A stretch of DNA of 64,000 nucleotides from Antedon mediterranea (Eukaryota; Echinodermata; Crinoidea; Comatulida; Antedonidae). The translations under genes and the position numbers were made by a program. Under the pieces are notes generated by a model. The model saw only the letters and a list, made by a program, of their open reading frames with translations, was not told the origin of the DNA and searched no databases. Below are positions 34,460 through 60,400 of this stretch, in pieces (position 1 is the first letter of the stretch; every line of letters starts with the position of its first letter). The stretch is from positions 21,395,001-21,459,000 of the forward strand of contig NC_092673.1 of assembly GCF_964355755.1 (NCBI RefSeq). Reading direction: 5' to 3'.

Positions 34460-34563
34460 ATGCATAGACTCACTGTTCTTTATCGCCATTTGTCATCGAG
34501 CTTGGTTGTTAAACCAGGTTTCCTTAGAATAAATCAGCAGTTTGGTGGAGGCCTAAAACAAAT
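34460..34563 (+). CDS. IDE: IDE coding exon 1: mitochondrial presequence-like
   Basis: Encodes [20 protein letters not shown] and then [14 protein letters not shown]: basic, Ser-rich and without acidic residues, as expected for a mitochondrial presequence. The donor AT|GTGAGT is in phase 2 and fits the phase of the exon at 35856. Human IDE likewise carries its presequence on a separate first exon, and Met45 here aligns with human Met42, the alternative cytosolic start. Too short and too divergent for homology to prove it; position, composition and phase support it. Confidence 0.8.
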
Positions 34564-37500
34564 GTGAGTGCCAGGCCCAGTAGCTGTGGCGCCCGCGAAG
34601 TTGTTTAGGCGAGGTAGTACTAGTAGATTAGGCCTAACTAAGCCAGGCTTATAATTAGGTCCGATTTAAGCGAAAATAAAATCACATTGAAAGGAAGACT
34701 TTATTTTTTAAGTAGACGAGGGATCTTGCTCAATCCAATAATTTTTAATATAATAAATATGAATAATGTTAAATTAATAATAATAAAAACAACTCCCTGA
34801 TAATACTAGAGGGTACTCCGAGAGTACAAACCTCCGCCTACTGTAAAATTCCCCTACATAAAATGCCCCCTGAATATTTTTTGTTTACATTTTTTTTTAT
34901 TAGTGTAAATATGTTAACTGCACACTACAAAGTTGTGGATGACAGTGTGGTGTATGGTTATGTATCCAGCCTCTCACAGTTGAGATCGCTGGTTCAAGTC
35001 CCACTGAGGGTTTTTTTTTTTTTATTATTTTTTTATTTATTTTTTTTTTTTGTGGACCTTGATCTTTGATCCTGACCCTTCAAAATTTAACCACAATTAT
35101 ATGATGTGTCATTGATCATTGTGTCCTAATTTGGTTAGAATCGGATAAAAACTGTGGCCTCCAGGCTGTTCACAGACACACACACAAACACACACACACA
35201 AACATACAGGGGTGAAAACATAACCTCCTTGGCGGAGGTAATAATATTGTTTTGTAGGATGAAAAAGAAAGAGTGCAATTTCAACTGTTGTTGCACATAC
35301 GGGAGTATAATAACAACATCATCATCATAAACTACAAAACTGACAATAGAATAGGAATTCCCACACTGTAGGCCCTAGTTATATAGTACGTGTGGTAGCT
35401 AAACCAAAATTATAATATAGTACCTCATATTTGGGGTTTAATTTACGGCATATATAGTGCATATGTATATCATTATAATAACATGATTCCATCGTCGTCC
35501 AACCATAATTGTCGATGTCCAACCAGAATACATAATTTATCAATAACACCAAATCATATGGACAAACACCGTCTTTTATGTTCTCTGATGCTTCTCTTTG
35601 GAATTCTCTCCCTCAACATATTACTAAATCAACATCTTTTGCTATTTTTAAAAAAGAATTTAAAATGCATCTTTTTAACATCTAATACAAGCGACTTTGA
35701 TTTTTACTTTGGTTTAGTTGATCGCGCTATAAAAAATACCTAAATTATTATTATTATTATATTAATACTGTAAAAAAAAACTGGATACTCCTAACATAGA
35801 TATAATATATGATTATTAATTCACAGATATAAAGCATAGATGGTTTTTTTTATAGAAAACTTGAAAAGGCAAGCTCTGTGGCCATGGATTCAAAAGTCAA
35901 GTGTAGGTATGACAACATCATCAAGTCGGCAGAGGATAAACGTCTTTACCGAGGTTTGTTGCTTAAAAATGGTATGAAAATACTGTTAATAAGTGACTCA
36001 ACTACAGAAAAGGCGGCTGCAGCAATGGATGTGCACATAGGTAGGTTTGTTCTTCTAATAGTCTTTATATTTATTGGAATCATGTCAGTTTGAACATTTC
36101 TGTTTTAATGTAGGGATAATACAATTGTAAATAATTGTATATTTATTGTAAACACTTGTTTTTTTCTTTTTTTCAGGTTCTCTGTCAGATCCATGGAATC
36201 TTCCTGGCCTTGCTCATTTTCTTGAACATATGCTGTTTTTAGGAACAGAGAAAGTAAGAATAATTTGTTATCATATACAAAATGCAATCATTGTGTATTG
36301 AGTGTAAAAACACGAGTTTTATATAAAATATTCTTTTTTCTTTTTACAGTATCCCTCTGAAAATGCTTATATGCAGGTGGGTCCATTTTTGTTTGTTTAA
36401 TCACATACAAGACATAATGTTGGATCTTTCAATTGATGCTAAAATTGATAGTAGTGTGTGGGTGGTTTTATACATTTTAGTCTATTTTGTGCCTAGCTTA
36501 CCTGGATAAACCAACATTAGCCTCTCTTGCTGAAGAGAAGAATACATTACGAAAAGAAGAACATTAATATACATTAAAATATCACACCCCGTGGGATAAT
36601 GGTATAGACCTTACCAGTTATAGAGTATCACTGTCTGAAGTCAAAACGATAGAGGGCGCTGCATGGTTGCTAGCCAACTAAAAAATGCGTTCAACGCTAC
36701 TATGTTGATAAACTATAAAGATCTGTATTTCTATCAAATTATGTATCTTAGCTTGATCTTTTTTAACTTAAACTGTAGTTGAAGAAGAAAAAGATTATTA
36801 AAAACAAATATTTAGTGATCTTTTGAAATTTTAGTTTGTTTTTATTGAAAATTATTAAGTTTTAAAATGACTACTTCAATAAGCCTAGTCCAAACCATTG
36901 GTGACCTTGGAGTCACTCAGGCAGGTATTTTAAACGTATTTTTGGTTGCGCTAGCAACCACGCAGCGCCACCCACCGTCGTGACGTCAACACCTGATACT
37001 CTATACACAGAAAGGGATGCTGCATAGGTAGGATCATATGTATAACATAAAACAGGCAAAGTTCTTGTTTCTGCCACAAAATAAATTATCGTCATCATTT
37101 TTTTTCGTATCGCCGGGTAAGTGGCACTCATAGACTACCAACACCACTGTTGGTTTGTGTAATTTTCTAAAATTCAATTTTAAAATACTCAGAAAACAAT
37201 AGCAGTGCTGTTTTTATTGTTTTTACCAATGTTTTGTTATTAGTATTTATCAGAACACGGAGGATCATCAAATGCTTTCACGTCTGGCCAGCACACTAAC
37301 TATTACTTTGATGTTGGCTGTGAACACTTTGCAGGAGCTCTTGATAGGTATGGCCAACTGTTTATCTTTGTTTTGGATATCATTCTAAAATTGAGAATAT
37401 TATTTGTTTTATAATGTAAAGATTGGCAACCAGAATCTTGCAGTCTATTTTGTGCCTAGCTTACCTGAATAAACAAACATTAGCCATTCTCTTTGAAGTG

Positions 37501-40500
37501 AGAGTACAGTTTTTTAGTTGAACGACTTTTCCTAAAAATGGGACAGTCCACAACTGTAGGATCATTCCATCCACCACCTTATATATATATCTATCTTCTG
37601 TTAAAACCTGTCACATTTTTTCACTGAATTTTTATCTGGTTTTAAATAAATGTGTTCAGATTTGCCCAGTTCTTTCTCTGCCCATTGCTGAATGAGGAAG
37701 TATCGGAGCGGGAAGTTAATGCCGTTGATCAGGAGAACACACGGAATGTGAAGCAGGACAACTGGAGATTGTTCCAACTTGAAAAATCTACCTCAAAAAA
37801 GAATCATGTATATACAAAATTCAACGCAGGTAGACACAACACTTATTTGTTATCTAAATATTTTGTTTCTCCAGTCAACAGTAACCTCAAGGTTGACCAA
37901 TTACAGGAGAGAACACAAACAACTCGCATAAAATATGTGAACGAAACTTCTATAATAATACATACATTTTATAAAAATTGGAAATATAATACATACAAAT
38001 TCTGCAAATTATCAACAGAATCAAAAATATAATACATGGATATATTTCTTTTATTACTTTTTTTTCTAGGCAATAAGAATACACTGCAGACTATTCCATT
38101 ACAAGAAGGGGTAAATGTACGTGAAGAGCTGTTGAATTTTCATTCTAAATACTACTCATCTAACATAATGGCTTTAGCAATACTTGGCAAAGGTAAGAAT
38201 AGTTATTACACATTACACGTAATTTCTACAGTCAATCACTCAACATAAATATACATATACACATATTTAACTTCCATGAACTTTTACATTCTCACATTTC
38301 ATGTCAATTTTCAACAAATTTGGCCAAACAAATGTGTTTTTTTTCCTGTTTTGATTTGTGTTCTTTTGATTTTAGATATTCTTGTTTGCTTCTTATAGAT
38401 TCTTTAGATACAATGGAATCAATGATTGTTGATCTTTTTGGAAGTGTCGAAAATAAATCAGTTGAGATTCCAGAATGGTTAGAGCATCCATATGGAGAGG
38501 AACAAGTGCAGGTATGTACAAATATTTTAATCAAAATTATTATAAGGGCCAATCAAATCATTAAAAATTGTTCGAAGTACACCTATTATATTTATTATTT
38601 TTATATAACACCTAAATAAATTCATTTGATTGGACTATTGTAGGTTATGGCAGGCAATAGTCTGCACTATTGAATGGCTGTAGGCCTACCTTTTACTCAA
38701 TCTGATTCAAATGACAGGAATCTATTTAGATGTTATATAAAACAAATAATGAATGTTTTATTCATGTAATGGTACAAATAATGGCATTCGGTGAATGATG
38801 ATAGGTTATATTTCATCATTCACTGAATGCCATTATTTGTACCATTACACTCATAAACATTCTTTATGTATAATATTATTATGTTTTAAAAGTCTTCTCT
38901 CAGTCTATAATCACTATTTTAGATAACAAACTAGAAATAAGGTAATAATATAACACAATTTATGTATGTAGGTTGAATACAATGTTGTTCCAGTCAAGGA
39001 TTTAAGACAGTTAAATATTTCATTTGCTATACCAGATATGAGCGAGCATTACAAATCAAAAGTAAGTATATCAATTTCTGATATTTTTTTCTAGAATCAA
39101 AACTAAACTGTCTAAATTTGTAAACACAATGACACAAATTAAAAATATTGTTTTTATGGAAAAATTACATTTGCTAAATTGAATTGTTGAATTTTGTGAA
39201 TAATTTAAAGCCTTTTTCTTTCCACAGCCTTCTCATTATTTAGGCCACCTTGTTGGACATGAAGGTATTGGTAGCTTGCTGTCAGAGCTCAAATCTCAGG
39301 GATGGGTGAACATGCTATATGGTGGTGAAAAGGCTGGAGCAAAGGGCTTTTCATTTTTTACTGTAACTGTAGACTTGAGTGAAGAAGGCTTAAGTATGTT
39401 TTATAGTTATACTAGTGCCCTTTTGTTTTCATGATGAGCCACATAATTACTAAGCTTTTGAGTCTAACAGTCATTCTGTACCGCCTCATATGTTTCTAAG
39501 AGTATGCAGAACAGCAGTAGTGTAGTAGAGCTGTAGCTTGGTGGTTAACATGCTTGCCTTCCAATCCAAAGGTCCAGGTTTAATCCTGACCTAGTGCCAG
39601 GGTTGAGACTTAGTTTATAAGCACCATACATTATATTATAAAATAGTTTATCCGTCCTTTAATCGACGAGCTGCTCTTTTTTGCTAATTAGTATATCACC
39701 ATTACTATTTTAATTGCTTTCAGACCATGTTGAAGACATTATCACGCACATTTTCCAGTATTTAAACATGCTCCGTAAGGAATGTCCTCAGGAATGGATC
39801 CATAAGGAATGCCAGGATTTGGATAACATGAGATTTCAGTTTAAGGATAAAGAAAGACCCTCATCATATGTCATGATGACAGTTTCCAACCTTCATGTGA
39901 GTCTTAAGCTCTGTCTACACTATCAAACTTTATGTGACAAAAAAATGTGATGTACCCATATATGGACATGATAATGTCATATGGCTACCATATTTGGGAA
40001 TATCACTTTTTTTGTCAAACTAGTTTGATAGTGTAGACAGAACTTTATGTTGTGGCATATGAAAATATTGTAACTTTATCAGAATTATCTCAAGAAATAA
40101 TCACCTAGCAATTTGTTACATTCTGTTTAATTAATTTATTGTTTTTACAAAATTATTAGTCAAATTAATTTTATTTAATCCATTTCAGAAATGAAATATT
40201 TATTGCACTAGTACTTTTGACTATCCATTATTACACTTTCATCATTTCATTTCATGGTATAACATGACATGGTATGACATGACATGGTATAACATGACAT
40301 GGTACAGTATGTCATCACATGGTACAGTATGTCATCACATGGTACAGTATGGCATGGTACAGTATGTCATCACATGGTATGACATGACATGGTACCGTAT
40401 GTCATGACATAGTATGACATGACATGGTATATCATGACATGGTATGACATGACATGGTACCGTATGTCATGACATAGTATGACATGACATGGTATATCAT

Positions 40501-43500
40501 GACATGGTATGACATGACATGGTACCGTATGTCATGACATAGTATGACATGACATGGTATGACATGACATAATATATCATGACATGGTATGACATTACAT
40601 GTTATAACATGACATGGTATAACATGCTATAGTATAACATGACATGGCATATCTGTACTTTGATGTTTACATCTTCACAGGAATATTCCTTCACCGAAGT
40701 ACTTTCAGCTGACTACACCATGTCAGAATACAGACCTGATCTTATAACAATGATTCTAGGACTACTTACCCCGGATAAGGCAAGGTAATATTCTTCTATT
40801 TTACCTTTATAATCTAAACATAGTACATCTTCACGTCATACAGTTTGTATGCTATGTGGTAAAAAGAGACTCTCTTACTAATGGGTTTTTTTCCTTCATT
40901 CAGGATTTCTGTGGTTTCAAAAAGTTTTGAAGGAAAAACAGAAAACGTAGAGAAATGGTATGGCACAGAGTATAATGTTAAAAAGGTACCAGCTGATGTT
41001 ATTCAGGTAAATAAAAAGAAAAACAATTGTAAGAAAGTAATTTAAAACTTTATATAATATACCAATACTATACAAAAATGAAATCAGAAACCAAGATCAA
41101 AAACGTGTCACTCCCATTAAGTTGTCATTTTCCTGTGAAATGAATGAGGGTTAGGCAATATATGTTTTGACACTACACCCCTAAAGAGCTCCTTTAATAC
41201 GATTTCTACGCTGTATATTGTATTAGAAAATGGCATTGTATTTGATATATAGAGCAATATCAATAATATCAAAGAGCTGCATAGCCAGAGTAGATAGAAA
41301 AAAATTAAAATCAAACAAGTTAAAACTGCCTCAATATAAATGCGTTAACACATAACAAGAATACATATTTTCCCATGTATAAATGTTACTTATTTCACCA
41401 TCGTTTTTTAATTTTAATGAATGAATCTTTAACAGAAATGGCAGAATGCTGGTTTCAACCCAAAGTTTTCTCTTCCTGCACGGAATGACTTCATCCCTAC
41501 GGATTTCAGTATAGTTCCCAATGAGGAAGGGTCACCTGCCTTTCCCACGCTGATCAAGGACACGCCCATGTCTAAGGTGTGGCACAAACAAGATGATACG
41601 TTCTTACTGCCAAAGGCTTGTTATTTCATTGATATTACAAGGTATAGTGATTTCGTTGGTTGTTTTTTATTACCTTCAAATAATGATAAGAAAACACAGA
41701 ATGTTAAAAGAATGTTGAATTTTGCCTCTGAATGTCCTCACATGAATTATATTTTCTTGTGACCTATCATTGACCTCACTTCTGGGACATGACACAGTTT
41801 TGCATACTTTGTTTTAATATTCATTCATTGTTTTTGCATAATGTTCTTAGTCCACTGAGTTACCTTGACCCTCTACATACCAACCTGACAAGATTGTTCA
41901 CTGTACTAGTGAAGGATGCCCTCAACGAATATGCGTATTCTGCCGAGATCGCTGGTATAGGTTACTCACTGGATAGTACTTTCTATGGATTATATGTAAG
42001 TAATGTAAATTTGTTATTTATATATTGATCAAATTTGACTATTCTATGAGTGAGACCATTTGATTTGATTTATTTAGCCGATTCTCGGTACTGTATCTAT
42101 TCCTATTCAGTATCAGGAATATTTGGTAATACAACATCACATGTGTTTCACATGTATCTAGTAGTAAACTAACCCTTAACCTAATCTTACATGATACAGG
42201 CACCACATGTGATATAAATGAGATGCTGTATTACCAAATATTCCTATAATACTTACGTAAATAGATAATACTGTATGTGGAGATACAGCACTGGGAATCA
42301 AGTGACTTATACATACATTATACCACACAAGTACAAGTACAAATACAGATAAAAATGACCAAAAAACATTCATTTTGTATTGTACAATCAAACCAATCCC
42401 ATGATTAACTCTGTAAAAGGATCAATTACGTGGAGCATTTATAGTATCTACCTACGTGGATCTACCTGGATTTTGAGACTTAAAGATGTATTGTCCCCCC
42501 TTAAAAAAATTTTTTTTTTTTACAATTTTTTTTTCAATATGCCATTTTAATCACCTAATAGTTATTTATTTTGACCCAAAATTGGATGGGGAAAAAAATA
42601 ATTTACCTGTAAAAACTGTAATTTAAAGCAAAAAATAGTCAAATTGGCTGCCAGCTAATGGGTTTTTGGTTGAATTTAACCGTTTATTTTGTCATATTAA
42701 AAAACATAATTTTTTGGGGGGTTTTTTTCTACAGAAGTGATTAACTTTGTTAAAACTATAAAATGGCATATTCAAAGTCTGATTTTATTAATCTTTATTT
42801 TTCAAGTTTTTTGGGAACAATACATCTTTAAAGCATTAATGCTTCTGTGCCTCTCGTGACTAGAACATATTCTTCTTACCGTATATGGGTATATTGGTGT
42901 TTATTTTATTGTTATATGTTTTAATTATTTGTTTTTTGGCAGTTAAATATTTCAGGTTATAATGATAAGCAAGACATACTTCTGAAAAAAGTTTTAGAAA
43001 AACTAACAAACCTTCAAATTGACGTGAATAGATTTGAAGTATTAAAAGAAATGGTAAGAAAATCGTTATTTTTTTTTTTTTTTTTATGTTTTTTTTATTT
43101 TTTCTTGTTTTAAATTTTTTTTTTATTATTTGTCAAGGCATTCCCTCAACAAGAGTTTCATCTTTTTGGCATTCTGCCTCCGTCCATTCAATAATCTCAA
43201 TCTGTCATTACTGTTTTTCTTTACTTATATCATTGTCTTTTTGACGGAAATAAATGTCTTTTGAATGAATAAAACGGTACCATGTCAAGAGTGTTAAAGA
43301 ATGACAGTCAAAGTGGTCTAGCTGGATTCTGGTTTTAATTTCTGCACAGGACATGTTGCATACAAAATCTTATTCTAAGTCTTATTAAAAAGGATTGAAG
43401 AAACCTAAACACCCTTTGCTTAGATAGGATTTGAACCCAGTACTACCCTTCTTACTTTGTTGCTAATATTAATTTCATTAGTGTAATACCATCATTTGTT

Positions 43501-46500
43501 TAACATAATGATATTTTAGTACAGTAGAATGCTAAAGAACTTCAGTGCGGAGCAGCCACATCAACATGCAGTGTACTATACCACTGTTTTGATGTCAGAA
43601 TTGGCCTGGACAAAGGATGAACTCTCAAACAGTATGGAAGGTAAGTAAATGTTCAATTTATAGTCACATATGATTACATAGTACTTTAATTGTCCATACA
43701 AATGTCTGTCTTCACATCTTATTGTAATTTAATCTGTATAGAGGTCACAGTTGAAAGGTTGAAAGCATTTATACCTCAGTTACTGTCAAGACTCCATGTA
43801 GAAGCTCTGTTCTATGGCAACTTGTCAAAACAGGTAAATATCATTCTGCATTCCTAGGGTTAGTAGGGACTTTACGGAACAGGACGGGAAGCTACAGTAC
43901 GGTGCTTATGAAAATAGAATGACCTTTTAACAAAGTGGGTTGAGCTTAGGTTGAAATTCTGTCGTTATTTTGGGGATGATAAAGTTGCCATTTTCCCATT
44001 AACGACTCGAAATAATGTATACATAACCTTAATACAGTTCAAATTACACTTAAAGTGTGGAATTTTCAAAATTCTAAATAATATTTGAACTTCTAATTTA
44101 ATTGTTTAACGAAATCACATTTTTATTGGGTTAAAAAGGCTGTGTTAAAGCAATACATTTTTGCGCTGCGTTTGACTGCGAGGCCCCTAGCTAGGATGTC
44201 TAGGCCTATGCTGTATCATCAGAGCCAAGCGATTCAGAAGGGCCCCGCGCTGCGAGACAGGGGAAGGAGAAAGATAGTACCGGTCTTCGTGCAAGGGTGT
44301 GTGACTAATAAAACGGATATGTCGACTATATATGTCCCTATTATGAGCAAGTGAGTGGCCAAGCGGTTTAGACAGTGGGACCGTAATTACGTATCCATAA
44401 CATCGGCAAGGGTTCATGGCTCACCAGCTCCATGGTTCTGGTGGTATGACAAGTCTTCTCGGATAAGGACTATAAAGTGTAAATGAACACATCTAGCTCA
44501 TGTGCACTTTAAAGAACCTAGTAGTACATCTTTCGAGATGAGTAGGGGTTACACCGGTGTTCTAGTACATCAAAGCCACTAATCATAACTGGGCCTTCTG
44601 GGGGACCAGTCTTTTACTGAATAGGTCGCCCAGAATTAATAAAATAAATTCAAGGGGTGCATTAAAGCGTGGCCACAAAATAGGCAAAACAGTGAGATAT
44701 AATTGAAATGTGTCTTTATTCCATTTTTAGAGAGCATTGGAAGTGGTGGACATGATTGAGAATGAACTCAAGAATACTTGTTCTACCAAACCTCTACTGG
44801 CAAGTCAACTTGTGAAACACAGAGAGATACAGCTACCAGATGGTGGGTTTTGATCAATTAGCAATAGGCACACACCTATCAAATGCATGGTATCCATGTC
44901 AATAAGATTAAAATTCCCATAGCAAAGAAAATTAGTAGATAGATAGATTTAAGTAGATATAGCTCTATGTTGAGTAGCCTTAATAGCTTTTTAGTAGGCC
45001 TTTTCAGCTCACCTACTAAAGGATTTTAACTCAAATACTATGACTATTTCCCAGTATGTATAAAACAGAGAGTATATTAAAAAATACGGACTATCATCAT
45101 TTTGTTAATAGTCTATTAAAACTTATTGGTAGCCCTAGGAAAGCTAAAAGTTAATAGATAATACAACTGTGTTATTCTATAGATTTTTAATTGCTACAGT
45201 ATCTGGTAGTCTATTGTATAAAATAGATAGCTTATTAATATTAACAGTAACTGGCTATTATCAGTTTGTTTATGTCTAATAATAGGTTGCTGGTAGCCCA
45301 TTGTATAGCTATTGTAAGTAGACAATAGATAGATGTATACAACTGTGTTACTCATAGATTTAAAATAGTAAAAAATCTATTTAATACTGTTAGTAGGGTT
45401 TTCGTAAAAAAATCTTCCTGAAATCTACGTATTAGTACTGTAGGTGCTTAGTAGGTAATAGAGCTGTATCCATTAAGACGATAGCTTATAAAGGCTAATA
45501 AATATAGCTATATCTACTAAGACTTTTGTTATGAAACTCTCTTAAATGGCAGCTTTGAATAATCGATATCCGTCACTCTAAAAATGTTTTAGATGCTCAT
45601 GCCAGGGGTAGAAAGTGATGATAAATAGACTTAACTAGCTAGCTGAGCTGGTAAAAATCCTGGCTGCATGCTTGGTATGTATGCACTAACAAACATAATT
45701 ATGATGTATTTTTAAGGCTGTTATTTTCAATATCATAAGTGTAATGATGTACATGACAGCAGTGGTATTGAGATGTACTACCAAGTGGGGCTGCAAGAGA
45801 CTGAGAAGAACATGCTGTTGGAACTACTTTGTCAAATAATCAGCGAACCTTGCTTTGATACACTTAGAACTCAAGAACAACTTGGTAAGTAGTCCTAATT
45901 TGATATCTCACAATTAAAACCGTCTATTTTAACCATTTATGGTAACAATGATTCTAAAATCTGTTCTAAGTTCTTTGAATACCTCAATAGATTTTGTTCA
46001 CACAATATTTATATGTTTCCCAATACATTGTTCCCGCTCATTATTATTATAGCTTTTATTTAAAAAAATTTGAATTGCGAGTTGATTACAAATATATAAA
46101 CATTAATATAAAATTTCAAGGAGAAAAACATTGATATATAAAATTTAGGAATATTATTATATACAGACTAAACAACATTATAATGCAAAACTACAAACGT
46201 TGCGTCATGATTGGTCAAATTACCTACAATGCGGTTACGTCCTTGTGTTGCATCCTAGTGTGAACCAACCTTAAGGGTGTTTGTCTATGTGATCAAGAAG
46301 AGCTCCAAAATGAATTAACAAATTATAACTATGTAATTAAAATGACAGGTTATATAGTGTTTAGTGGAGTTAGAAGGTCAAATGGTGTTCAAGGTTTTCG
46401 TGTTATCATACAGTCTAATAAGCCACCCAGCTATCTTGATTGCAGAGTTGAGGCATTTTTAGCTCAAATGAAGGTAAGTATAGTGACATATCCAAACTGT

Positions 46501-49500
46501 ACTTATAAGAACACAAATGATTTATTTATGTAGATGTAATTTAAACAACCCATGGACAAATCATGCAGTGAAAGAAGCAAATTTTAAGGTCTGTTCTAGG
46601 TAGAGCACAAATCTTTAGACTAATATGCAAAAGAGTTAAGCAAATTATATAAAATATAATACATGAAAGAAACTTTTATTCAATAAACAAAACAAGAAAT
46701 AAAAAAGACATTGAAAAAAGAGTTTTTCTCACCATTATGCTAAGTGTGTTCTGAAAACCGATGATGTTAAATTCTTTTTTTAAGGAACTTATTATAAATA
46801 TGAAAGCTGAGGAGTTTGAACGACAAGTGTCTGCATTAGTTGTTAAACTGTCTGTCAAACCAAAAAAACTAATAACTCAATGTCGCAAATACTGGAGCGA
46901 AATCATTTCAGGACAGTACCACTTTGATAGAGGTTGGTAAAAGTGTTATGCTTGCTTTCCAATCTTAAGGTCCATGGTTCAATCCTGATCTTGTGTCAGG
47001 GTTGTAACTCACGACTCTGTCTACTTCACTCTCTATGCTTCAAATGAGACTTCGTTTATAAACACACTAATTATATAGTTTATCCATCCTGTAATTGCTA
47101 AGTTTCTCGCTGTTAGATAACTATAAAAAAAAAAAAAAAAACTTTTGATGTTTATTTTCAGATTCTGTTGAGATTGCTTGTCTGAAAACCATAACGAAGG
47201 ATAATTTGATAGACTTCTTTAACAAGTATATTGATGCAAACGCTTCACAACGACATAAAATATCAGTTCACATCAAACCAACTGTCACAGCTGATGAACC
47301 GGATTCGTCTGAGAATATGACAGACAAACCTGTAGATGGAATTGTATTGACTGAAGTAAGTACCCCCAATGTCAATAGGACAGACAAACCTGTAGATGGA
47401 ATTGTATTGACTGAAGTAAGTACCCCCAATGTCAATAGGACAGACAAACCTGTAGATGGAATTGTATTGACTGAAGTAAGTACCCCCAATGTCAATAGGA
47501 CAGACAAACCTGTAGATGGAATTGTATTGACTGATGTAAGTACCCCCAATGTCAATAGGACAGACAAACCTGTAGATGGAATTGTATTGACTGAAGTAAG
47601 TACCCCCAATGTCAATAGGACAGACAAACCTGTAGATGGAATTGTATTGACTGATGTAAGTACCCCCAATGTCAATAGGACAGACAAACCTGTAGATGGA
47701 ATTGTATTGACTGAAGTAAGTACCCCCAATGTCAATAGGACAGACAAACCTGTAGATGGAATTGTATTGACTGAAGTAAGTACCCCCAATGTCAATAGGA
47801 CAGACAAACCTGTAGATGGAATTGTATTGACTGAAGTAAGTACCCCCAATGTCAATAGGATAGACAAACCTGTAGATGGAATTGTATTGACTGAAGTAAG
47901 TACCCCCAATGTCAATAGGACAGACAAACCTGTAGATGGAATTGTATTGACTGAAGTAAGTACCCACAATGTCAATAGGACAGACAAACCTGTAGATGGA
48001 ATTGTATTGACTGATGTAAGTACCCCCAATGTCAATAGGATAGACAAACCTGTAGATGGAATTGTTTTGACTGAAGTAAGTACCCCCAATGTCAATAGGA
48101 CAGACAAACCTGTAGATGGAATTGTATTGACTGAAGTAAGTACCCACAATGTCAATAGGACAGACAAACCTGTAGATGGAATTGTATTGACTGATGTAAG
48201 TACCCCCAATGTCAATAGGACAGACAAACCTGTAGATGGAATTGTATTGACTGAAGTAAGTACCCACAATGTCAATAGGACAGACAAACCTGTAGATGGA
48301 ATTGTATTGACTGATGTAAGTACCCCCAATGTCAATAGGATAGACAAACCTGTAGATGGAATTGTTTTGACTGAAGTAAGTACCCCCAATGTCAATAGGA
48401 CAGACAAACCTGTAGATGGAATTGTATTGACTGAAGTAAGTACCCACAATGTCAATAGGACAGACAAACCTGTAGATGGAATTGTATTGACTGATGTAAG
48501 TACCCCCAATGTCAATAGGATAGACAAACCTGTAGATGGAATTGTATTGACTGAAGTAAGTACCCCCAATGTCAATAGGACAGACAAACCTGTAGATGGA
48601 ATTGTATTGACTGAAGTAAGTACCCCCAATGTCACTAGGACAGACAAACCTGTAGATGGAATTGTATTGACTGAAGTAAGTACCCCCAATGTCAATAGGA
48701 CAGACAAACCTGTAGATGGAATTGTATTGACTGAAGTAAGTACCCCCAATGTCAATAGGATAGACAAACCTGTAGATGGAATTGTATTGACTGAAGTAAG
48801 TACCCCCAATGTCAATAGGATAGACAAACCTGTAGATGGAATTGTATTGACTGAAGTAAGTACCCCCAATGTCAATAGGACAGACAAACCTGTAGATGGA
48901 ATTGTATAGACTGATGTAAGTACCCCCAATGTCAATAGGACAGACAAACCTGTAGATGGAATTGTATTGACGGATGTAAGTACCCCCAATGTCAATAGGA
49001 CAGACAAACCTGTAGATGGAATTGTATTGACTGATGTAAGTACCCCCAATGTCAATAGGATAGACAAACCTGTAGATGGAATTGTATTGACTGATGTAAG
49101 TACCCCCAATGTCAATAGGACAGACAAACCTGTAGATGGAATTGTATTGACTGATGTAAGTACCCCCAATGTCAATAGGATAGACAAACCTGTAGATGGA
49201 ATTGTATTGACTGAAGTAAGTACCCCCAATGTCAATAGGATAGACAAACCTGTAGATGGAATTGTATTGACGGAAGTAAGTACCCCCAATGTCAATAGGA
49301 CAGACAAACCTGTAGATGGAATTGTATTGACTGATGTAAGTACCCCCAATGTCAATAGGACAGACAAACCTGTAGATGGAATTGTATTGACTGAAGTAAG
49401 TACCCCCAATGTCAATAGGATAGACAAACCTGTAGATGGAATTGTATTGAATGAAGTAAGTACCCCCAATGTCAATAGGATAGACAAACCTGTAGATGGA

Positions 49501-51081
49501 ATTGTATTGACTGAAGTAAGTACCCCCAATGTCAATAGGACAGACAAACCTGTAGATGGAATTGTATTGACTGAAGTAAGTACCCCCAATGTCAATAGGA
49601 TAGACAAACCTGTAGATGGAATTGTATTGACTGAAGTAAGTACCCCCAATGTCAATAGGACAGACAAACCTGTAGATGGAATTGTATAGACTGATGTAAG
49701 TACCCCCAATGTCAATAGGACAGACAAACCTGTAGATGGAATTGTATTGACGGATGTAAGTACCCCCAATGTCAATAGGACAGACAAACCTGTAGATGGA
49801 ATTGTATTGACTGATGTAAGTACCCCCAATGTCAATAGGATAGACAAACCTGTAGATGGAATTGTATTGACTGATGTAAGTACCCCCAATGTCAATAGGA
49901 CAGACAAACCTGTAGATGGAATTGTATTGACTGATGTAAGTACCCCCAATGTCAATAGGATAGACAAACCTGTAGATGGAATTGTATTGACTGAAGTAAG
50001 TACCCCCAATGTCAATAGGACAGACAAACCTGTAGATGGAATTGTATTGACTGAAGTAAGTACCCCCAATGTCAATAGGATAGACAAACCTGTATTTGGA
50101 ATTGTATTGAATGAAGTAAGTACCCCCAATGTCAATAGGATAGACAAACCTGTAGATGGAATTGTATTGACTGAAGTAAGTACCCCCAATGTCAATAGGA
50201 CAGACAAACCTGTAGATGGAATTGTTTTGACTGAAGTAAGTACCCCCAATGTCAATAGGATAGACAAACCTGTAGATGGAATTGTATTGACTGAAGTAAG
50301 TACCCCCAATGTCAATAGGACAGAAAAACCTGTAGATGGAATTGTATTGACTGATGTAAGTACCCCCAATGTCAATAGGATAGACAAACCTGTAGATGGA
50401 ATTGTTTTGACTGAAGTAAGTACCCCCAATGTCAATAGGACAGACAAACCTGTAGATGGAATTGTATTGACTGAAGTAAGTACCCCCAATGTCAATAGGA
50501 CAGACAAACCTGTAGATGGAATTGTATTGACTGATGTAAGTACCCCCAATGTCAATAGGACAGACAAACCTGTAGATGGAATTGTATTGACTGAAGTAAG
50601 TACCCCCAATGTCAATAGGATAGACAAACCTGTAGATGGAATTGTATTGACTGATGTAAGTATCCCCAATGTCAATAGGACAGACAAACCTGTAGATGGA
50701 ATTGTATTGACTACCCCCAATGTCAATAGGATAGATTGAACTCTTTTTTTTAAAGTCTAAAACCTATATCATCAGCTCAGCTTAATTATATATACAGTAT
50801 TAAGAAATTACACACTTTCCTGGAAATCTTGACTTTTTACATGATTTTTTTCTTTTATTGCATTGTTGTGTCATGGTGCCTTGAGCATCTCATGTTTGAT
50901 GTAAAGCGACGCAATATAATATTTTCTTAGATGATTAGTACTGTACTCAATTAAATCATGTTTTTATCTTTCACAGCCTGTTGTAGTAACAGATGTCACA
51001 TACTTTAAAAGTGGTTTATCACTGTTTCCACGACCCGCCTCTTATATTGATAGTTTAGCACCAGCCAAGTCAAAACTTTAG
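34460..51081 (+). CDS. IDE: Insulin-degrading enzyme (insulysin, M16A zinc peptidase), 24 coding exons
   Basis: Cleaves insulin, amyloid-beta and other small peptides inside a two-half chamber; found in cytosol, mitochondria and peroxisomes. Exons: 34460-34563, 35856-36040, 36177-36253, 36350-36376, 37244-37347, 37660-37829, 38070-38192, 38399-38511, 38972-39061, 39228-39393, 39724-39896, 40681-40784, 40904-41006, 41436-41641, 41851-41995, 42943-43053, 43520-43640, 43742-43833, 44731-44842, 45717-45884, 46349-46473, 46785-46932, 47162-47355, 50977-51081. All phases agree; 3066 nt, 1021 aa (human 1019). Zinc site HFLEH is residues 110-114, and the third ligand Glu lies in NAVDQEN near 191. [13 protein letters not shown], the hinge SKSFEGKT and the substrate-binding [14 protein letters not shown] are conserved. 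The tail ends in SKL, a peroxisomal signal. Leu replaces human Cys110 in the zinc motif. The donor at 47356 is the first of 56 tandem copies, so longer isoforms are possible. Confidence 0.96.
34800..35245. mobile_element. Dispersed tRNA-like repeat H, copy 2
   Basis: Contains CCTCCGCCTACTGTAAAATT, TGTGGTGTATGGTTATG and GGTTCAAGTCCCACTGAGGG in the same order as 31770-32240. It ends at ACCTCCTTGGCGGAGGTA. It sits in IDE intron 1. A 68-codon ORF inside is not called. Confidence 0.6.
35480..35760 (+). mobile_element. 3' end of a non-LTR retrotransposon (LINE), remnant
   Basis: In the frame ending with TAA at 35683-35685, a short stretch reads [16 protein letters not shown] followed by [17 protein letters not shown]. 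The LWNSLP...FK..LK.HLF arrangement is typical of the C-terminal end of ORF2 in CR1/L2/Jockey-type LINEs. A TTATTATTATTATTATATTA microsatellite follows about 55 bp later, as in the short tandem tails of such elements. Strongly 5'-truncated; no reverse transcriptase core is present. Confidence 0.7.
36177..36253 (+). CDS. IDE: IDE exon 3, zinc-binding motif
   Basis: Encodes [20 protein letters not shown] and LGTEK. The inverted zinc motif HxxEH is HFLEH at 36215-36229. The two histidines bind zinc and the glutamate activates water, as known for M16 peptidases. The acceptor follows a strong T-rich tract. The next exon (36350-36376) is only 27 nt (YPSENAYMQ). Confidence 0.95.
36610..37015. mobile_element. 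Inverted-repeat element in IDE intron 4
   Basis: ATAGAGTATCACTG...GGGCGCTGCATGGTTGCTAGC on the left is mirrored by GCTAGCAACCACGCAGCGCC...GATACTCTATAC on the right. Arms of about 90 bp enclose about 200 bp of AT-rich DNA. Non-coding; the 72-codon minus-strand ORF across the right arm is not a gene. Confidence 0.7.
38767..38847. repeat. Near-perfect hairpin in IDE intron 8
   Basis: Two 34-nt arms (38767-38800 and 38814-38847) are complementary with one mismatch and a 13-nt loop. The left arm begins TAATGGTACAAATAATGGCA. The flanks show weaker continued pairing. It could be a fold-back transposon or a structured RNA; no family match is visible in the window. Confidence 0.85.
39524..39665 (+). 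mobile_element. tRNA-derived SINE, family E
   Basis: The head is AGCTGTAGCTTGGTGGTTAA (box A) and AGGTCCAGGTTTAATCCTGA (box B). The body has GAGACTTAGTTTATAAGCAC and AGTTTATCCGTCCTTTAAT. It inserts in the intron between IDE exons 10 and 11. Confidence 0.75.
39903..40046. mobile_element. MITE family A abutting the IDE exon 11 donor
   Basis: Exon 11 ends at 39896 and its donor reads GTGAGTC. The MITE begins at CTTAAGCTCTGTCTACACTA from 39903, so its terminal repeat starts at about intron position +7. The right end is GATAGTGTAGACAGAACTTTA. This is a complete copy. Confidence 0.85.
40250..40655. repeat. ACATGACATGGTA minisatellite in IDE intron 11
   Basis: About 400 bp are built from ATGACATGACATGGTA-type words with GTACCGTATGTC and GTACAGTATGTC variants. 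A block of about 67 bp (GGTACCGTATGTCATGACATAG...) is repeated at 40391, 40458 and 40519. The CATG/ATGTCATG words make it locally self-complementary. It ends about 25 nt before the exon 12 acceptor region. Confidence 0.85.
42115..42250. mobile_element. Fold-back MITE in IDE intron 15
   Basis: AGGAATATTTGGTAATACAACATC and GATGCTGTATTACCAAATATTCCT are inverted copies, with inner CACATGTG words also mirrored. About 135 bp with no ORF. Confidence 0.75.
42480..42832. mobile_element. MITE family C, longest regular copy
   Basis: Starts TTAAAGATGTATTGTCCCCCC and ends TGGGAACAATACATCTTTAA. Inner inverted pieces include ATGCCATTTTAAT and AAAATGGCATATT. It lies in IDE intron 15. Confidence 0.85.
44349..44651 (+). 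mobile_element. tRNA-Ser/Leu-headed SINE, family D, copy 2
   Basis: GTGAGTGGCCAAGCGGTTTAGAC (box A) and CAAGGGTTCATGGCTCAC (box B) start the element. The body matches the reverse of 33476-33768 (TCTTCTCGGATAAGGACTAT, GTGCACTTTAAAGAACCTAG). It ends ATTAATAAAATAAATT. It is in the intron before IDE exon 19. Confidence 0.8.
46191..46275. mobile_element. MITE family B, half copy
   Basis: ACGTTGCGTCATGATTGGTC leads into GCGGTTACGTCCTTGTGTTGC and CCTAGTGTGAACCAACCTTAA. Only the right arm of the family is present. Confidence 0.6.
46935..47141 (+). mobile_element. SINE family E with A-tail, next to IDE exon 23
   Basis: Box-B-like GGTCCATGGTTCAATCCTGA and body GAGACTTCGTTTATAAACAC end in a run of 18 A. 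The head is truncated. The A-run stops 20 bp before the exon 23 acceptor at 47160-47161, so the polypyrimidine tract is squeezed to ACTTTTGATGTTTATTTTCAG. The element begins 3 nt after the exon 22 end. Confidence 0.7.
47162..47355 (+). CDS. IDE: IDE exon 23, its end lies in the 60-bp array
   Basis: Encodes residues 923-987 ([20 protein letters not shown] ... [10 protein letters not shown]), the end of the M16 C-terminal domain, then a variable linker [18 protein letters not shown]. The first donor is at 47356 (GAA|GTAAGT, phase 0). If it is used, IDE is 1021 aa, matching the family. The same frame stays open past the donor through 26 units to a TAG at 48907-48909, so the exon could end at any of 26 donors and still keep the last exon in frame. 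Confidence 0.85.
47319..50737 (+). repeat. 60-bp splice-donor minisatellite, about 57 units, in IDE
   Basis: Each unit is about 36 nt of exon end (ACAGACAAACCTGTAGATGG, AATTGTATTGACTGAA) plus 24 nt of intron start (GTAAGTACCCCCAATGTCAATAGG). The period is exactly 60 with no indel until the last unit, which lacks the nine bases GAAGTAAGT. Fifty-six units keep GTAAGT. Variants are limited to a few sites: ACA/ATA, GAA/GAT, CCC/CAC, GTA/GTT, and two units with TTG changed to TAG (48907, 49687). In frame the unit is 20 residues, [10 protein letters not shown] then [11 protein letters not shown] 780-bp block (13 units from 48901) is partly repeated from 49681. Antisense is also open for 1152 codons, a by-product of the period. 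Confidence 0.98.
50977..51081 (+). CDS. IDE: IDE last coding exon, with peroxisomal SKL end
   Basis: The acceptor is TTTTTATCTTTCACAG, phase 0. Thirty-four residues, [20 protein letters not shown] ... LAPAKSKL, then TAG. The F/L-K-x-G-L-x-LFP motif aligns with FKRGLPLFP of human IDE. The terminal SKL is a canonical type 1 peroxisome signal (human IDE ends AKL). A possible polyadenylation signal AATAAA is at 51207-51212. Confidence 0.93.
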   Translation, partial: PVVVTDVTYFKSGLSLFPRPASYIDSLAPAKSKL

Positions 51082-53290: not shown

Positions 53291-55487
53291 GGTTTTTCTA
53301 CCGGTACACTAGCATCACCATCAAAATCCTTTATCTCGCGATGTGCCTGTCTCAAATATTGTTGTTGTTTATAGAATAGTTTCAAAGCTCCTTTAATAGT
53401 CACAAATGCAATACCACCCTAAAAAATAAAACAAGTTTTAGTAAATTTGCTAATGCAATATAGTACTATATATCACCAGATCAAATACATAAGTAAATTG
53501 TGGTAGGTCATGACCTTTCTGTACATTTACAGTCAACATACTGTATAAAAGAAAACCAACTTACCAAAATAGTTCTTTGTAAATTTGACTTTAATGAGCC
53601 AAAGAGAAGTTTTCCGGTGACTGTTGAAACAGTCGGGAAAATGAGGGCGCCACAAAGAACTCTCGTTGCTGACAGTGGATCAGACATTGGTTGTGTATCT
53701 GCTGGTATCCTAGGCAACATGTCGGACATTTGATTCCATCCGCAAACATATTTCCAGATTGGGAGTTTAGGTGAATATTTGCGCCAAAGTTTCAAGACAT
53801 AATCTTCCCATCTGAGCATTTTACTGAGTATCAGCATAACAGGGATTGTTGGGAGTCCAATAAGTAGGAATAAGGGGTCAGCTCGTTCCATCACATCAAG
53901 CCCTTCCTTGTGCCCCAAAACCTGCATTATTGTCACTGCACCATATGTTACAGCAGACCAGTACACTGAGCCAACTACCACACCCGCAGCAGCAAACGGA
54001 CATACTTTGTAAATCAGTTTATCAACAAGATCTAAAAAGCTAACAAAGGAACCTGTGAAATAAATAAAATACAAATTATGACATCAAATCCAGGCATTTT
54101 CTTTTGGAAATTGTAGGTGTGCTACAAATTGCACTCCTCAACACATTCAGGGGTGCTGTAGGTGTGCCGTTTGTATTTTGGTGTGTTCAAGTTTTTTAAG
54201 TGTGTTGTAAATTGCACTCCTCAAGGGCAGTTTAGGTGTGTGTTAAGTCACACTCGCTCGCCTAAAAAATAAGGCATTCGAATAATTTTGAATTTTGGCA
54301 GTAAGGTGTTTACAGTTAGGGGAAAAATGACTATAGTCATGTTAGAAAGTGTAGTTAAGAGTTGTTAAGCAACATAACTTTACCACATAAAACTCCTAGA
54401 AAGAAAAAGCCTTTTACCATTTTCACGACTGTTTAGGGCAGTCAATGATTATTGGTGAATTATCGGTCAGGGTACAAAAATAAAGAATGACCCGCCTGTA
54501 ATGTTATACCAATAAGATAAGATGCGGTTAAAACATATAAGAGGTTTTTCAAGTTCAGTTATTCATGTGTCAGACATTGTTATATTTTTACCTATTCCTG
54601 GATATACAATGATGTATTCTGTACTACATTGTGGGCAAGAAACCTTTGCTGTGCTGTTTCCTTTCTGTTTCTCATCAATCCATCGCTGTAAACAAACTTG
54701 ATGAACCCATTTGGTTGTTCCTTTACATCTACAAGGTCTTGTCCATTTTGCTGTCATATCATCTTCATCGGTGGCAAAACACACCCAACAACTTCTCCTA
54801 TAATCATAATTATGCAATGTATATTAATTATCAACCGAAACTCCATGTTTGAGTATTTGAAAGATGTATTGTCTACCAAAAACATAAAAAATAGAAAAAT
54901 TAATAAAGTAAGATTTTTGCAATTTTAATCAAGTTTGTTTGTTTGTTTGTTTTTTTATTTCCATTCACAACAAAATAAAACCATTAACATACATAAATAT
55001 TCATTACAAAAATGAAAGAATGGAAAGGGGGAATCTCTGAAGCACAGCAGCTTATAAGTAGAAACCCCCTGTTACAAAACAGTTTATAAATAGTAATATG
55101 AAATAAAGTTATTCACTTCTGTAGAAAAAATCCACAAAAATAATGATTTCACATTAAAAAAACGGTTAATTTTAACCAAAAATCATTGTCTGACAGACAA
55201 TTTAGGTATTTTTTACTTTAAATTACATTTTTATCAGGAGAATAATTTTTTTTTTTCGTCCAGTTTTTGGTCAAAGATAACCATTATGTGACATTAAAAT
55301 GGCATATTAAAAAATTATTTTTTTAGGGGGACAATATCTTTGATACTGTGCGTTTAAATGTGTGTACAGTAGATTAAAAGGAGTCTGAATAGTACATGTG
55401 ATCTTACCTATCATCCCTGCTCAATCTCTTAGCAACAGGTGAATGACTTACTTCTCCCGTACTTGTTGCAATAGGAGCATTTTCCAT
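53263..55487 (-). CDS. MARCHF5: MARCHF5, mitochondrial RING-CH E3 ubiquitin ligase
   Basis: E3 ligase of the mitochondrial outer membrane that in vertebrates controls fission factors (DRP1, MiD49) and MCL1 turnover. Exons: 55487-55408, 54797-54592, 54052-53565, 53418-53263; 930 nt including stop, 309 aa (human 278). The RING-CH finger is complete: C30, C33, C49, C51, H59, C62, C81 and C84 (CWVCFATDEDD, RPCRCKGTTKWVHQVCLQRW, CPQC). Four hydrophobic segments follow, starting FAAAGVVVGSVYWSAVTYGA and LFLLIGLPTIPVMLILSKM. The motifs GHKEGLDVMERADPL and RTIL|GGIAFVTIKG are strongly conserved. The N-terminal 27 residues are unlike human. The start is the first ATG after an in-frame TGA about 36 nt upstream. 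It is convergent with IDE and divergent from BTRC. Confidence 0.97.
54110..54262. repeat. GTAGGTGTGC internal repeat in MARCHF5 intron 2
   Basis: ATTGCACTCCTCAA occurs twice (54127 and 54209), and TGTAGGTGTGC-type words also recur, giving an imperfect repeat of about 80 bp. Non-coding. Confidence 0.5.
54858..55343. mobile_element. MITE family C, enlarged copy in MARCHF5 intron 1
   Basis: Left end TGAAAGATGTATTGTC, right end AGGGGGACAATATCTTTGA. Inner CACTTCTGTAGAAAAAATCC and CAGTTTTTGGTCAAAG match other copies. It is about 130 bp longer than the copy at 42480. The extra segment, about 54930-55085, starts with a GTTT run and contains AGCACAGCAGCTTATAAG, so a nested insertion is likely. Confidence 0.65.
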
Positions 55488-57409: not shown

Positions 57410-60400
57410 ATGATTAGTTTAGCGGACATTGAAGATGAGAGTATGCAAGAACTTCCTGATGGAATGGTGAGTATTGGCATGGTACGAGTTGTCCATTATT
57501 TTTGCTAGGACAGGATCGGTTGTTGTTTTTTTAAGTGTTATAAGATGGATGTTGTTGACAAAACATAGGCCTAGCCCAATTTTATCATTTATTATATAAA
57601 TCCTAGGCCTAGTGTTCTTTACAAAATAGACAGGCTTACATAAATAACTTGTAGGTTTTGATTCATATTCATTATTTGATATTTATACAACCAATCCAAC
57701 AAAAAAGTAGCCAAGCAAAACATCATCATGAATGGAGAAGAGAAGGAATGAATGGATGCCAATGAATGTAATGCCTACACAGTACATAGTGCTATTAGGC
57801 CTACTCTACTATAGCCTATTGATAACCATTTATGCTGCCTTTGATGAAAATAAATAATATTTTGACACGTCTAATCAAATGACATGATTTTGTGAAGACC
57901 AGTATATGGTGACAATATATTAAATACAATACAATGATTTTATTGTTCTTATTGATCATGACGTTATTTGATTGAATTAAAAAATATAATATTTTTATCA
58001 AAAAGGGAGGAAAAACAGTTATCATTATTCTAGAATGAATGTATTTCAAAAAAATGTATGTTTTTCTTTTACTGTTGATCGTTATTGTCCTAGTGTGTAG
58101 CAGACTTTAAGCCTACAGTATGGACGTTTTGTTTTCAGTTTTTTGTTGAAGGATTTGTGACCTGATGAGAAATTCCCTTCATTAAATAATCGTAGGCCAG
58201 GGTGGAGGAATTACGCATTTGTTCTCATACAGCACCTCTCCAAGTTTTGGTGCGGGCTGGGACTTTAGATAACCTTTAAATATTTTACATTATGCAAACT
58301 CTCGGCACATCGCTTCAACTAGCTACTCATGGTTGACATACCATAATCTTTCTTGTTTACAGATATATTTACATTTAAACAAGTACAGTATGCTAATATT
58401 GATGACATACAAAAATATGTTTTTATGTTGTATTATCGTTTAAAAAACAAACAAAATATGAACGTAGATACTCTAGAGGCTAGACACATAGTGTATACAG
58501 GTACAGTAGTACATTTATACACATTACTCTATAGGCTGGAAATGAACTACATTCATCAAACATGACCTTTAAAAAGCCATATTTATACTCTGTCAGGTCA
58601 ATGACCAACTGTACTAGGTTGTGTAGGAAATCTGATAAGGTTTAGTAGTTGAAATAAAATGCAATTTTTACTGTGATTTTGACTACATAAAATGCCAAAT
58701 ATATTCATAAATCTGGTAAACAGCTGTTTCCTACAGTATACAGTAACAATAGTTATCAACACCAACTTGTTTTCCTCTTGATAATAATCTGTACTAACAG
58801 CCAGCCCTCCCAGTATCCGCAGCCTTCAAATGATATTATAGAAATTTACATAATCAAATTTACTATTTGTTTATTTTAGACAAGTATAAGGCCTCAACAT
58901 TATAATAAAGTAATAATAGTTATCAACACCAACCTGTTTTCTTCACGATTAAAAATCTGTACAGCTAGCTCTCCAAGTATCTGCATCCTTCAAAATACCT
59001 GTATATAGATTGACATAATAAAATGAACTATTTATTTGTTATTTTAGACAAGTATAAGGCCCGTTTCAAAACTAAAGGAAAACACACCGGAATTTAATGA
59101 AGAAAAAGACAAGTGCCTAAAATATTTTGAACAATGGAACGAAACAGAACAATTAGAATTTGTAGAACATCTAATCACACGCATGTGTCACCATCAACAT
59201 GGACAAATTAATTCCTATTTAAAGCCTATGTTACAAAGAGATTTCATCACCGCATTACCAAGTAAGTATTTCTTATTAATATTTCCTCAACCAAATTGTG
59301 TGTTAAATATTTTATTGTGGACAGACGAACGGGTGCCGTTTTGTGGCAGCACTCGACACGAAAGGACCCTTAGAGGAGTAGAAGGGTGTGGATGTATCCA
59401 CACCTGTGCGCAATTCAGCCCAGTGGGCTGCAAGTCACAAGTTATTCTCCCATTTACATTGATTAATTATTTGTACAGTACAATGCTTCAGGTAATAGAG
59501 TGGCATACACATCAACTTTCCATGCTCATATTTTAACATACACAATACTGTTGTATTTGTGCTGATAACATACTGTTACAGTAAGATTTTTCTGTACTGA
59601 TTATCTCTTTTATTTTAATTAAATCAGATAAGATCTTCTATAATTTGTCATTTTGACGAATCAAATTCTACATCTACAGTAGTTAATTATTACCAATACC
59701 ATCCATAAGTTCTGAGAAAAAAGTTTAATAATTGGTCATGGCCGTATATTTTGTGAACTTATCAAAAGTGCACAAGGTGGTAGGTAAATGTGTGTAACAT
59801 TCTTAACTGAGAGATTTCCTAGAAAATTATTATAATTTGATGCTTTCTATTAGTAATTGTATGCAATATACAGTAGGCACACATCATAGTGATAACTTGA
59901 ATGATATTCAAGGTTACTGTATCCATAATGTTTTTAATTAAATAATTTTTTTTTTATGGTTTATGTTTAATTCGGCAGATATGAGATAGATGTAGTTTGT
60001 TGTGAAGAAAAGAATTTAGCAATTTCATTATCTAATTCATATTTGTTGGTATACTTACACAATGAGACCCATTTTGATGGGAATCTTGGGGCAGCGAATG
60101 CAGGTTTGGCGGTAGAGAGAGTCCCTATGAATAAAGTTCAATATGATTCTATCCACTGGCTGTACAATATATTGTGTTCATGACAATTTTTTTTTTTACA
60201 TTTTTATAAATTTACACCAAATTTAACTAAAGCCAAGAATTGTATATTTTTAAAATGGGATTTTATTAAAGATGTATAAAATAAATCAGATTTTGAATAG
60301 GCCATTTTGCAGTTTTAATAGCTATTCACTTCTGTAGAAAAAAAAATCAACAAAAATAAATATTTTACTTATTTAAAAAAAACAAACAAAAGAAATGATT

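Follow-up and report, generated by a model that had tools for sequence, protein, structure and literature searches.

A minisatellite of splice donors at an exon-intron junction of the insulin-degrading enzyme gene in the crinoid Antedon mediterranea

How is a splice donor chosen when the end of an exon and the start of its intron are repeated together, so that 56 nearly identical donors stand in front of the last coding exon? This question is raised by the gene for insulin-degrading enzyme (IDE) of the crinoid Antedon mediterranea, located in a stretch of genomic DNA of 64,000 nucleotides, here called the window. The gene and the parts of it that matter here are as follows.

34460-51081, forward strand: IDE gene, 24 coding exons, 1021 amino acids, with C-terminal SKL and the zinc-site motif HFLEH
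36350-36376, forward strand: IDE microexon, 27 nt
47162-47355, forward strand: exon 23 when spliced at donor 1, 194 nt, ending in phase 0
50977-51081, forward strand: exon 24, starting in phase 0, coding for the last 34 residues and the stop; acceptor score 12.8

Our own model of the gene is complete, with 24 coding exons of 27-206 nt, and agrees with the preliminary description of this DNA in the identity of the gene, the number of exons, the phase 0 junction, the length of 1021 residues and the start of exon 24 at 50977. The intron before exon 23 ends at 47161. Codons for SKL lie at 51070-51078, and SKL was found in exon 24 only. Full-length homology, domain content and the HxxEH zinc site (HFLEH) place the product among IDE proteins of the M16 family; 563 of 957 aligned residues (59%) are identical to human IDE. 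A deposited insulin-degrading enzyme-like protein of A. mediterranea, P0001, is 100% identical over residues 560-968 of the prediction, the part that was searched. It carries the Pfam domains PF00675, PF05193, PF16187 and PF22456, is the sole member of its protein cluster and lacks the N-terminal part of IDE, HFLEH motif included. Its structure model (built from an alignment of 18 sequences; mean pLDDT 77.6) has 50 solved matches listed, all of them insulin-degrading enzyme structures. Exon 23 is joined to exon 24 at the same place in P0001 as in our gene model, following residue 873 (the protein has 907 residues, and exon 24 codes for 34 of them).

The repeats begin at the end of exon 23 and extend into intron 23 (slash, exon-intron junction).

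47320-50679, forward strand: 56 tandem units of 60 bp, each composed of 36 nt of exon end and 24 nt of intron start, with GA(A/T)/GTAAGT
47356-47361, forward strand: GTAAGT of donor 1, at which exon 23 of P0001 is spliced
50680-50737, forward strand: terminal unit 57, running into unique intron sequence

Units 1-56 follow each other from 47320 in steps of exactly 60 bp, with zero indels, and GTAAGT is present in all 56, after GAA in 36 and after GAT in 20. Unit 57 has no donor because nine nucleotides (GAAGTAAGT) are deleted from it. The tandem unit thus spans an exon-intron junction and carries a donor in 56 of 57 copies. Tandem Repeats Finder reports period 60, 56.7 copies, 97% matches and a score of 6378, the highest among 51 rows in the window; the array is not a product of chance. 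The preliminary description had given the make-up of the unit and the number of donors correctly, and its limits of the array needed correction: the array starts at 47320, with homology from 47314, and holds 57 units in all.

Translation of the array depends on two stop codons.

48907-48909, forward strand: first in-frame TAG, in unit 27; donor 27 follows after 6 nt and donor 28 after 66 nt
49687-49689, forward strand: second in-frame TAG, in unit 40, a unit of the same type as unit 27

Read from exon 23, the frame has no stop between 47149 and the first TAG and passes 26 donors on the way, as had been described before and as our frame scan confirmed. Because units 27 and 40 are of the same type, the second TAG was probably copied together with its block. 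The unit is 60 nt long, its frame stays open past 26 donors and the acceptor of exon 24 is in phase 0, so each of donors 1 to 26 joins exon 24 in frame, giving a protein of 1021 + 20(n-1) residues for donor n. The openness of the unit and its length in threes are unremarkable: a length divisible by three together with an open 24-nt intron part (GTAAGT plus 18 random bases) has a chance of ~0.2. In the model of P0001, pLDDT is under 50 at residues 852-866, before the junction, and a short strand follows at 875-877; as modelled, extra 20-mers would therefore sit in a loop. The length of this linker differs among 18 aligned IDE proteins. A separate model of exon 23 with repeats (184 residues, no alignment) gave two short strands per 20 residues at a mean pLDDT of 58.0, which was too weak to use; structure prediction can produce spurious solenoids from perfect repeats. 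Two reading frames of 1166 and 1162 amino acids also stay open across the array in antisense (47263-50763, reverse strand); a tandem unit that has no stops in these frames would give them anyway, and they are not evidence of a gene.

The donors of the array differ little from each other. Pairing with U1 is -7.0 for GAA units and -6.8 for GAT units, and positions -3 to +6 of donor 1 are those of all 36 GAA units; the idea that donor 1 was picked for a stronger sequence thus found no support. GAA donors of the array are weaker than most other donors in the gene, 15 of 22 of which pair better with U1, with one tie; 17 of the 22 score above them with a matrix built from the same 22. Hiding of donors by RNA structure found no support either, since upon folding the first 12 array donors are unpaired to 0.39-0.57, within the range of the gene's 22 other donors (0.01-0.69). 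Seven of these first twelve (donors 1, 2, 3, 5, 7, 8 and 9) are flanked by identical sequence over 37 nt or more on the upstream side and 25 nt or more on the downstream side. The footprint of U1, according to a portion of PMC6002489, covers 23 nt upstream and 12 nt downstream of a donor; the spacing of 60 nt exceeds these ~35 nt, so U1 snRNP could in principle occupy all donors together. Recurrent AG sites inside the units score -7.5 to 4.1, with an array maximum of 5.0 in one unit, against 12.8 for the acceptor of exon 24; the acceptors of IDE range from 0.9 to 18.9, however, and two of 23 lie below 4.1. Cassette exons arising from within the array look unlikely.

Variation among the units speaks to their history and constraint. 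Twelve of 60 columns are variable, defining 15 unit types, and the GTAAGT hexamer is invariant. Seven of units 1-9 share one sequence and the other two each carry one changed base; the 3' part of the array is more varied. Runs of unit types recur 5 and 13 units further on: types of units 11-15 return as 16-20, and those of units 27-32, TAG included, at 40-45. The order of unit types shows block copying, and the repeated runs, seen in one assembly, suggest that the array is unstable; copy number that varies among individuals is typical of minisatellites. Coding constraint on the units was not detected (2 of 12 variants synonymous against an expected fraction of 0.27, P=0.34), one variant among the 12 is a nonsense change, and exon and intron columns did not differ in variability (P=0.33). 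Zero variable columns within GTAAGT has a chance of 0.25 and lends no support to purifying selection on the donors; with 12 variable columns all these comparisons have low power. The best reading is a near-neutral minisatellite with no sign of function so far. Dispersal of the unit through the genome was considered and found no support: 50 of 50 exact copies of its 24-nt intron part (exact matches only were counted) fall in the array. No match to any Rfam family reached the gathering score.

To place the array in time, we aligned 18 IDE proteins, drawn from 120 listed of 969 homologues: P0001, a second crinoid protein, from Anneissia japonica, and 16 more. No tandem copy stands at the junction in any of them, the two crinoid proteins included. 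Since the 17 proteins other than P0001 lack it, the array is derived and donor 1 the ancestral junction at the protein level, in line with the earlier proposal that the expansion is secondary. A trace of its beginning may be preserved at the edges.

47314-47324, forward strand: 5' partner of an 11-bp near-repeat (AATATGACAGA) at the left edge of the array, probable duplication seed
50725-50735, forward strand: 3' partner of the near-repeat (AATAGGATAGA) at the right edge, matching at 9 of 11 positions

Unit junctions read AATAGGACAGA or AATAGGATAGA, with a sole exception after unit 22. Two 11-mers with 9 of 11 matches fit a first duplication brought about by their pairing. We infer that 60 bp across the junction of exon 23 and intron 23 were duplicated in tandem, with slippage or unequal exchange at the imperfect 11-bp repeats as the probable mechanism, and that the minisatellite was then enlarged by block duplication in the crinoid lineage of Antedon.

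The surrounding chromosome is rich in tandem arrays, and large ones are common nearby. With a filter of at least 300 bp, period 9-500 and at least 3 copies, 19 array rows were found in 20 sampled 10-kb loci (200 kb) of the same chromosome, some of which may belong to a single array, and the same filter gave 5 rows in the 64-kb window. None of the 19 sampled rows has GTRAGT in its consensus unit on either strand. With arrays and introns both numerous, inclusion of a junction in some arrays is to be expected if selection does not act against it. Another intron of IDE holds a 65-bp minisatellite of 5.8 copies (40263-40647), which ends ~30 nt before the acceptor at 40680 and so reaches the likely branch-point region. 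A tandem motif of 21 bp recurs in slightly differing form, as GTGATATGCCCAAATATGGTA or its complement, at 1887, 14873, 29099 and 62588 and is perhaps part of a dispersed element. Beyond IDE, a reverse-strand frame at 53508-54083 has a weak Pfam match to DUF2517, below the cut-off; it presumably resembles MARCHF5, a gene that neighbours IDE in human too. A beta-TrCP D domain (PF12125, E 1.4e-24) is encoded at 59048-59536 on the forward strand.

Which donor, then, is used? P0001, the one deposited protein found from this locus, is spliced from donor 1 to exon 24; when 1000 residues of the translated repeat served as query, one protein of 49 candidates (~550-1750 residues long) was returned, again this donor-1 form. 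The graded series of isoforms envisaged in the preliminary description thus has no counterpart among the deposited proteins found. A lone deposited product is weak evidence against such a series, because short reads from within the repeats cannot be traced to a particular donor; the gene model behind P0001 may also be based on protein homology rather than RNA. We think it rather probable that the array is a near-neutral minisatellite in which donor 1 is dominant, donors 2 and 3 perhaps minor and the distal donors silent. Near equality of the donors in sequence and their similar accessibility suggest that position probably decides among them. Long internal exons are disfavoured under exon definition. 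Donor sequence cannot tell the array donors apart. We infer that donor 1 and the 194-nt exon would be favoured, because a donor is paired across a short exon with the acceptor upstream of it, here at 47161. At most a short tail of use would reach donors 2 and 3, adding 20 or 40 residues to a flexible linker, and the rest of the array would be spliced out as intron. As the unit is open and a multiple of three, occasional use of donors up to 26 would keep the frame, which may be a reason why the array was tolerated.

A true ladder, in which many of donors 1-26 are used and 0 to 500 extra residues are added in 20-residue steps tuned by repeat number, is possible and in our judgement doubtful, as are the corresponding isoforms with insertions in the linker ahead of the C-terminal segment. 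Donors essentially equal in pairing, accessibility and surroundings, a frame open past 26 of them and an insertion point that follows a linker modelled with low confidence are all consistent with it; the single deposited product without repeats, the short coding exons of IDE set beside the long internal exons that a ladder needs, and the undetected coding constraint argue against it. It is unlikely that the array acts as a splicing ruler, with donor use falling with distance from the upstream acceptor and the repeat number of each animal setting its series of isoforms; IDE isoforms of graded linker length would then be made, with SKL lost beyond unit 26. An array that is wrong, or wrong in copy number, in the assembly is very hard to credit: there is a single assembly, and near-identical units are difficult to assemble, but 15 unit types stand in an ordered pattern, both flanks are unique, the gene is intact and 3.4 kb is short enough for one long read.

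Opposite to the choice of donor 1 would be the use of a distal donor, or of none, in a fraction of transcripts, whose mRNA would then meet the TAG of unit 27; this we regard as improbable. According to a portion of PMC6002489, preference between two comparable donors goes to the intron-proximal one, by a mechanism described there as not known, and applied to this gene such a preference would lead to distal donors, an exon over 3 kb long and stop codons. The position of the first TAG directly before donor 27 and the confinement of SKL to exon 24 give this outcome a consequence: a protein without its last 34 residues and SKL signal if donor 27 or retention is used, and decay, expected for donors 28 and beyond because the stop lies more than 50 nt before the junction. 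ATTAAA at 50950 in intron 23 could serve intronic polyadenylation. A conserved enzyme would be damaged in this way, however, exon 24 is present in P0001, and AATAAA, the other of two hexamers searched, is absent from the intron. The array thus sets exon definition against intron-proximal preference and brings its own natural control, in that the seven like donors among the first twelve lie at multiples of 60 nt, with position as their main difference; the first donor would be joined to 50977 under exon definition, and the last under intron-proximal choice.

Two further IDE proteins contain repeats elsewhere in their sequence. In P0004, an IDE-like isoform X2 of Mizuhopecten yessoensis, residues 761-1056 consist of ten tandem 30-residue copies, the last without FVVT, and start at the point that matches the start of the Antedon exon at 45717. 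The FVVT that separates the copies is possibly the translated 3' end of an intron, and the scallop gene, judged from its protein, may hold the mirror image of the Antedon array, a minisatellite of splice acceptors. The repeat region of P0004, when searched, matched itself alone at E up to 1e-30. IDE of Ridgeia piscesae (P0007) has a long block present twice, either an exon duplication or a gene-model error. Both proteins, with repeats elsewhere than at the junction, were left out of the alignment.

The human gene 6-16 (IFI6, G1P3) has a repeat unit of 12 bp, five times shorter than that of Antedon, and its alternative donors keep the reading frame. It supplies a precedent where the preliminary description knew of none: like the Antedon array, it is a minisatellite that provides several splice donors (Turri, Cuin and Porter 1995, a paper cited by PMC2572611 and PMC4526556). 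Two downstream repeat units act as donors there and three mRNA species result, as stated in a passage of PMC4526556; in Antedon the deposited protein uses donor 1. By analogy, the reported use of only two downstream donors in IFI6 supports silence of the donors beyond the first few in Antedon. The Antedon array differs in having 56 donors, spaced more widely than the reported U1 footprint, and in its gene, a conserved protease of a crinoid. Other loci with tens of donors were not found in the literature searched, most subscription journals being outside it. Human genes of segmental duplications have internal tandem repeats at exon-intron boundaries (units of 30 bp on average, four copies; excerpts of PMC2812944), likewise minisatellite expansions at an exon edge that alter gene structure, and those described there are novel introns or elongated exons and introns rather than tens of donors. 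Splice signals are also copied when introns arise by tandem genomic duplication (PMC4974935); there a new intron is gained and an acceptor is needed in the copy. AG sites of the Antedon units reach 4.1 (5.0 once) against 12.8 for the acceptor of exon 24, although two of the 23 acceptors of IDE itself score below 4.1. The IDE array is therefore a striking new example of a kind of repeat already known from a human gene.
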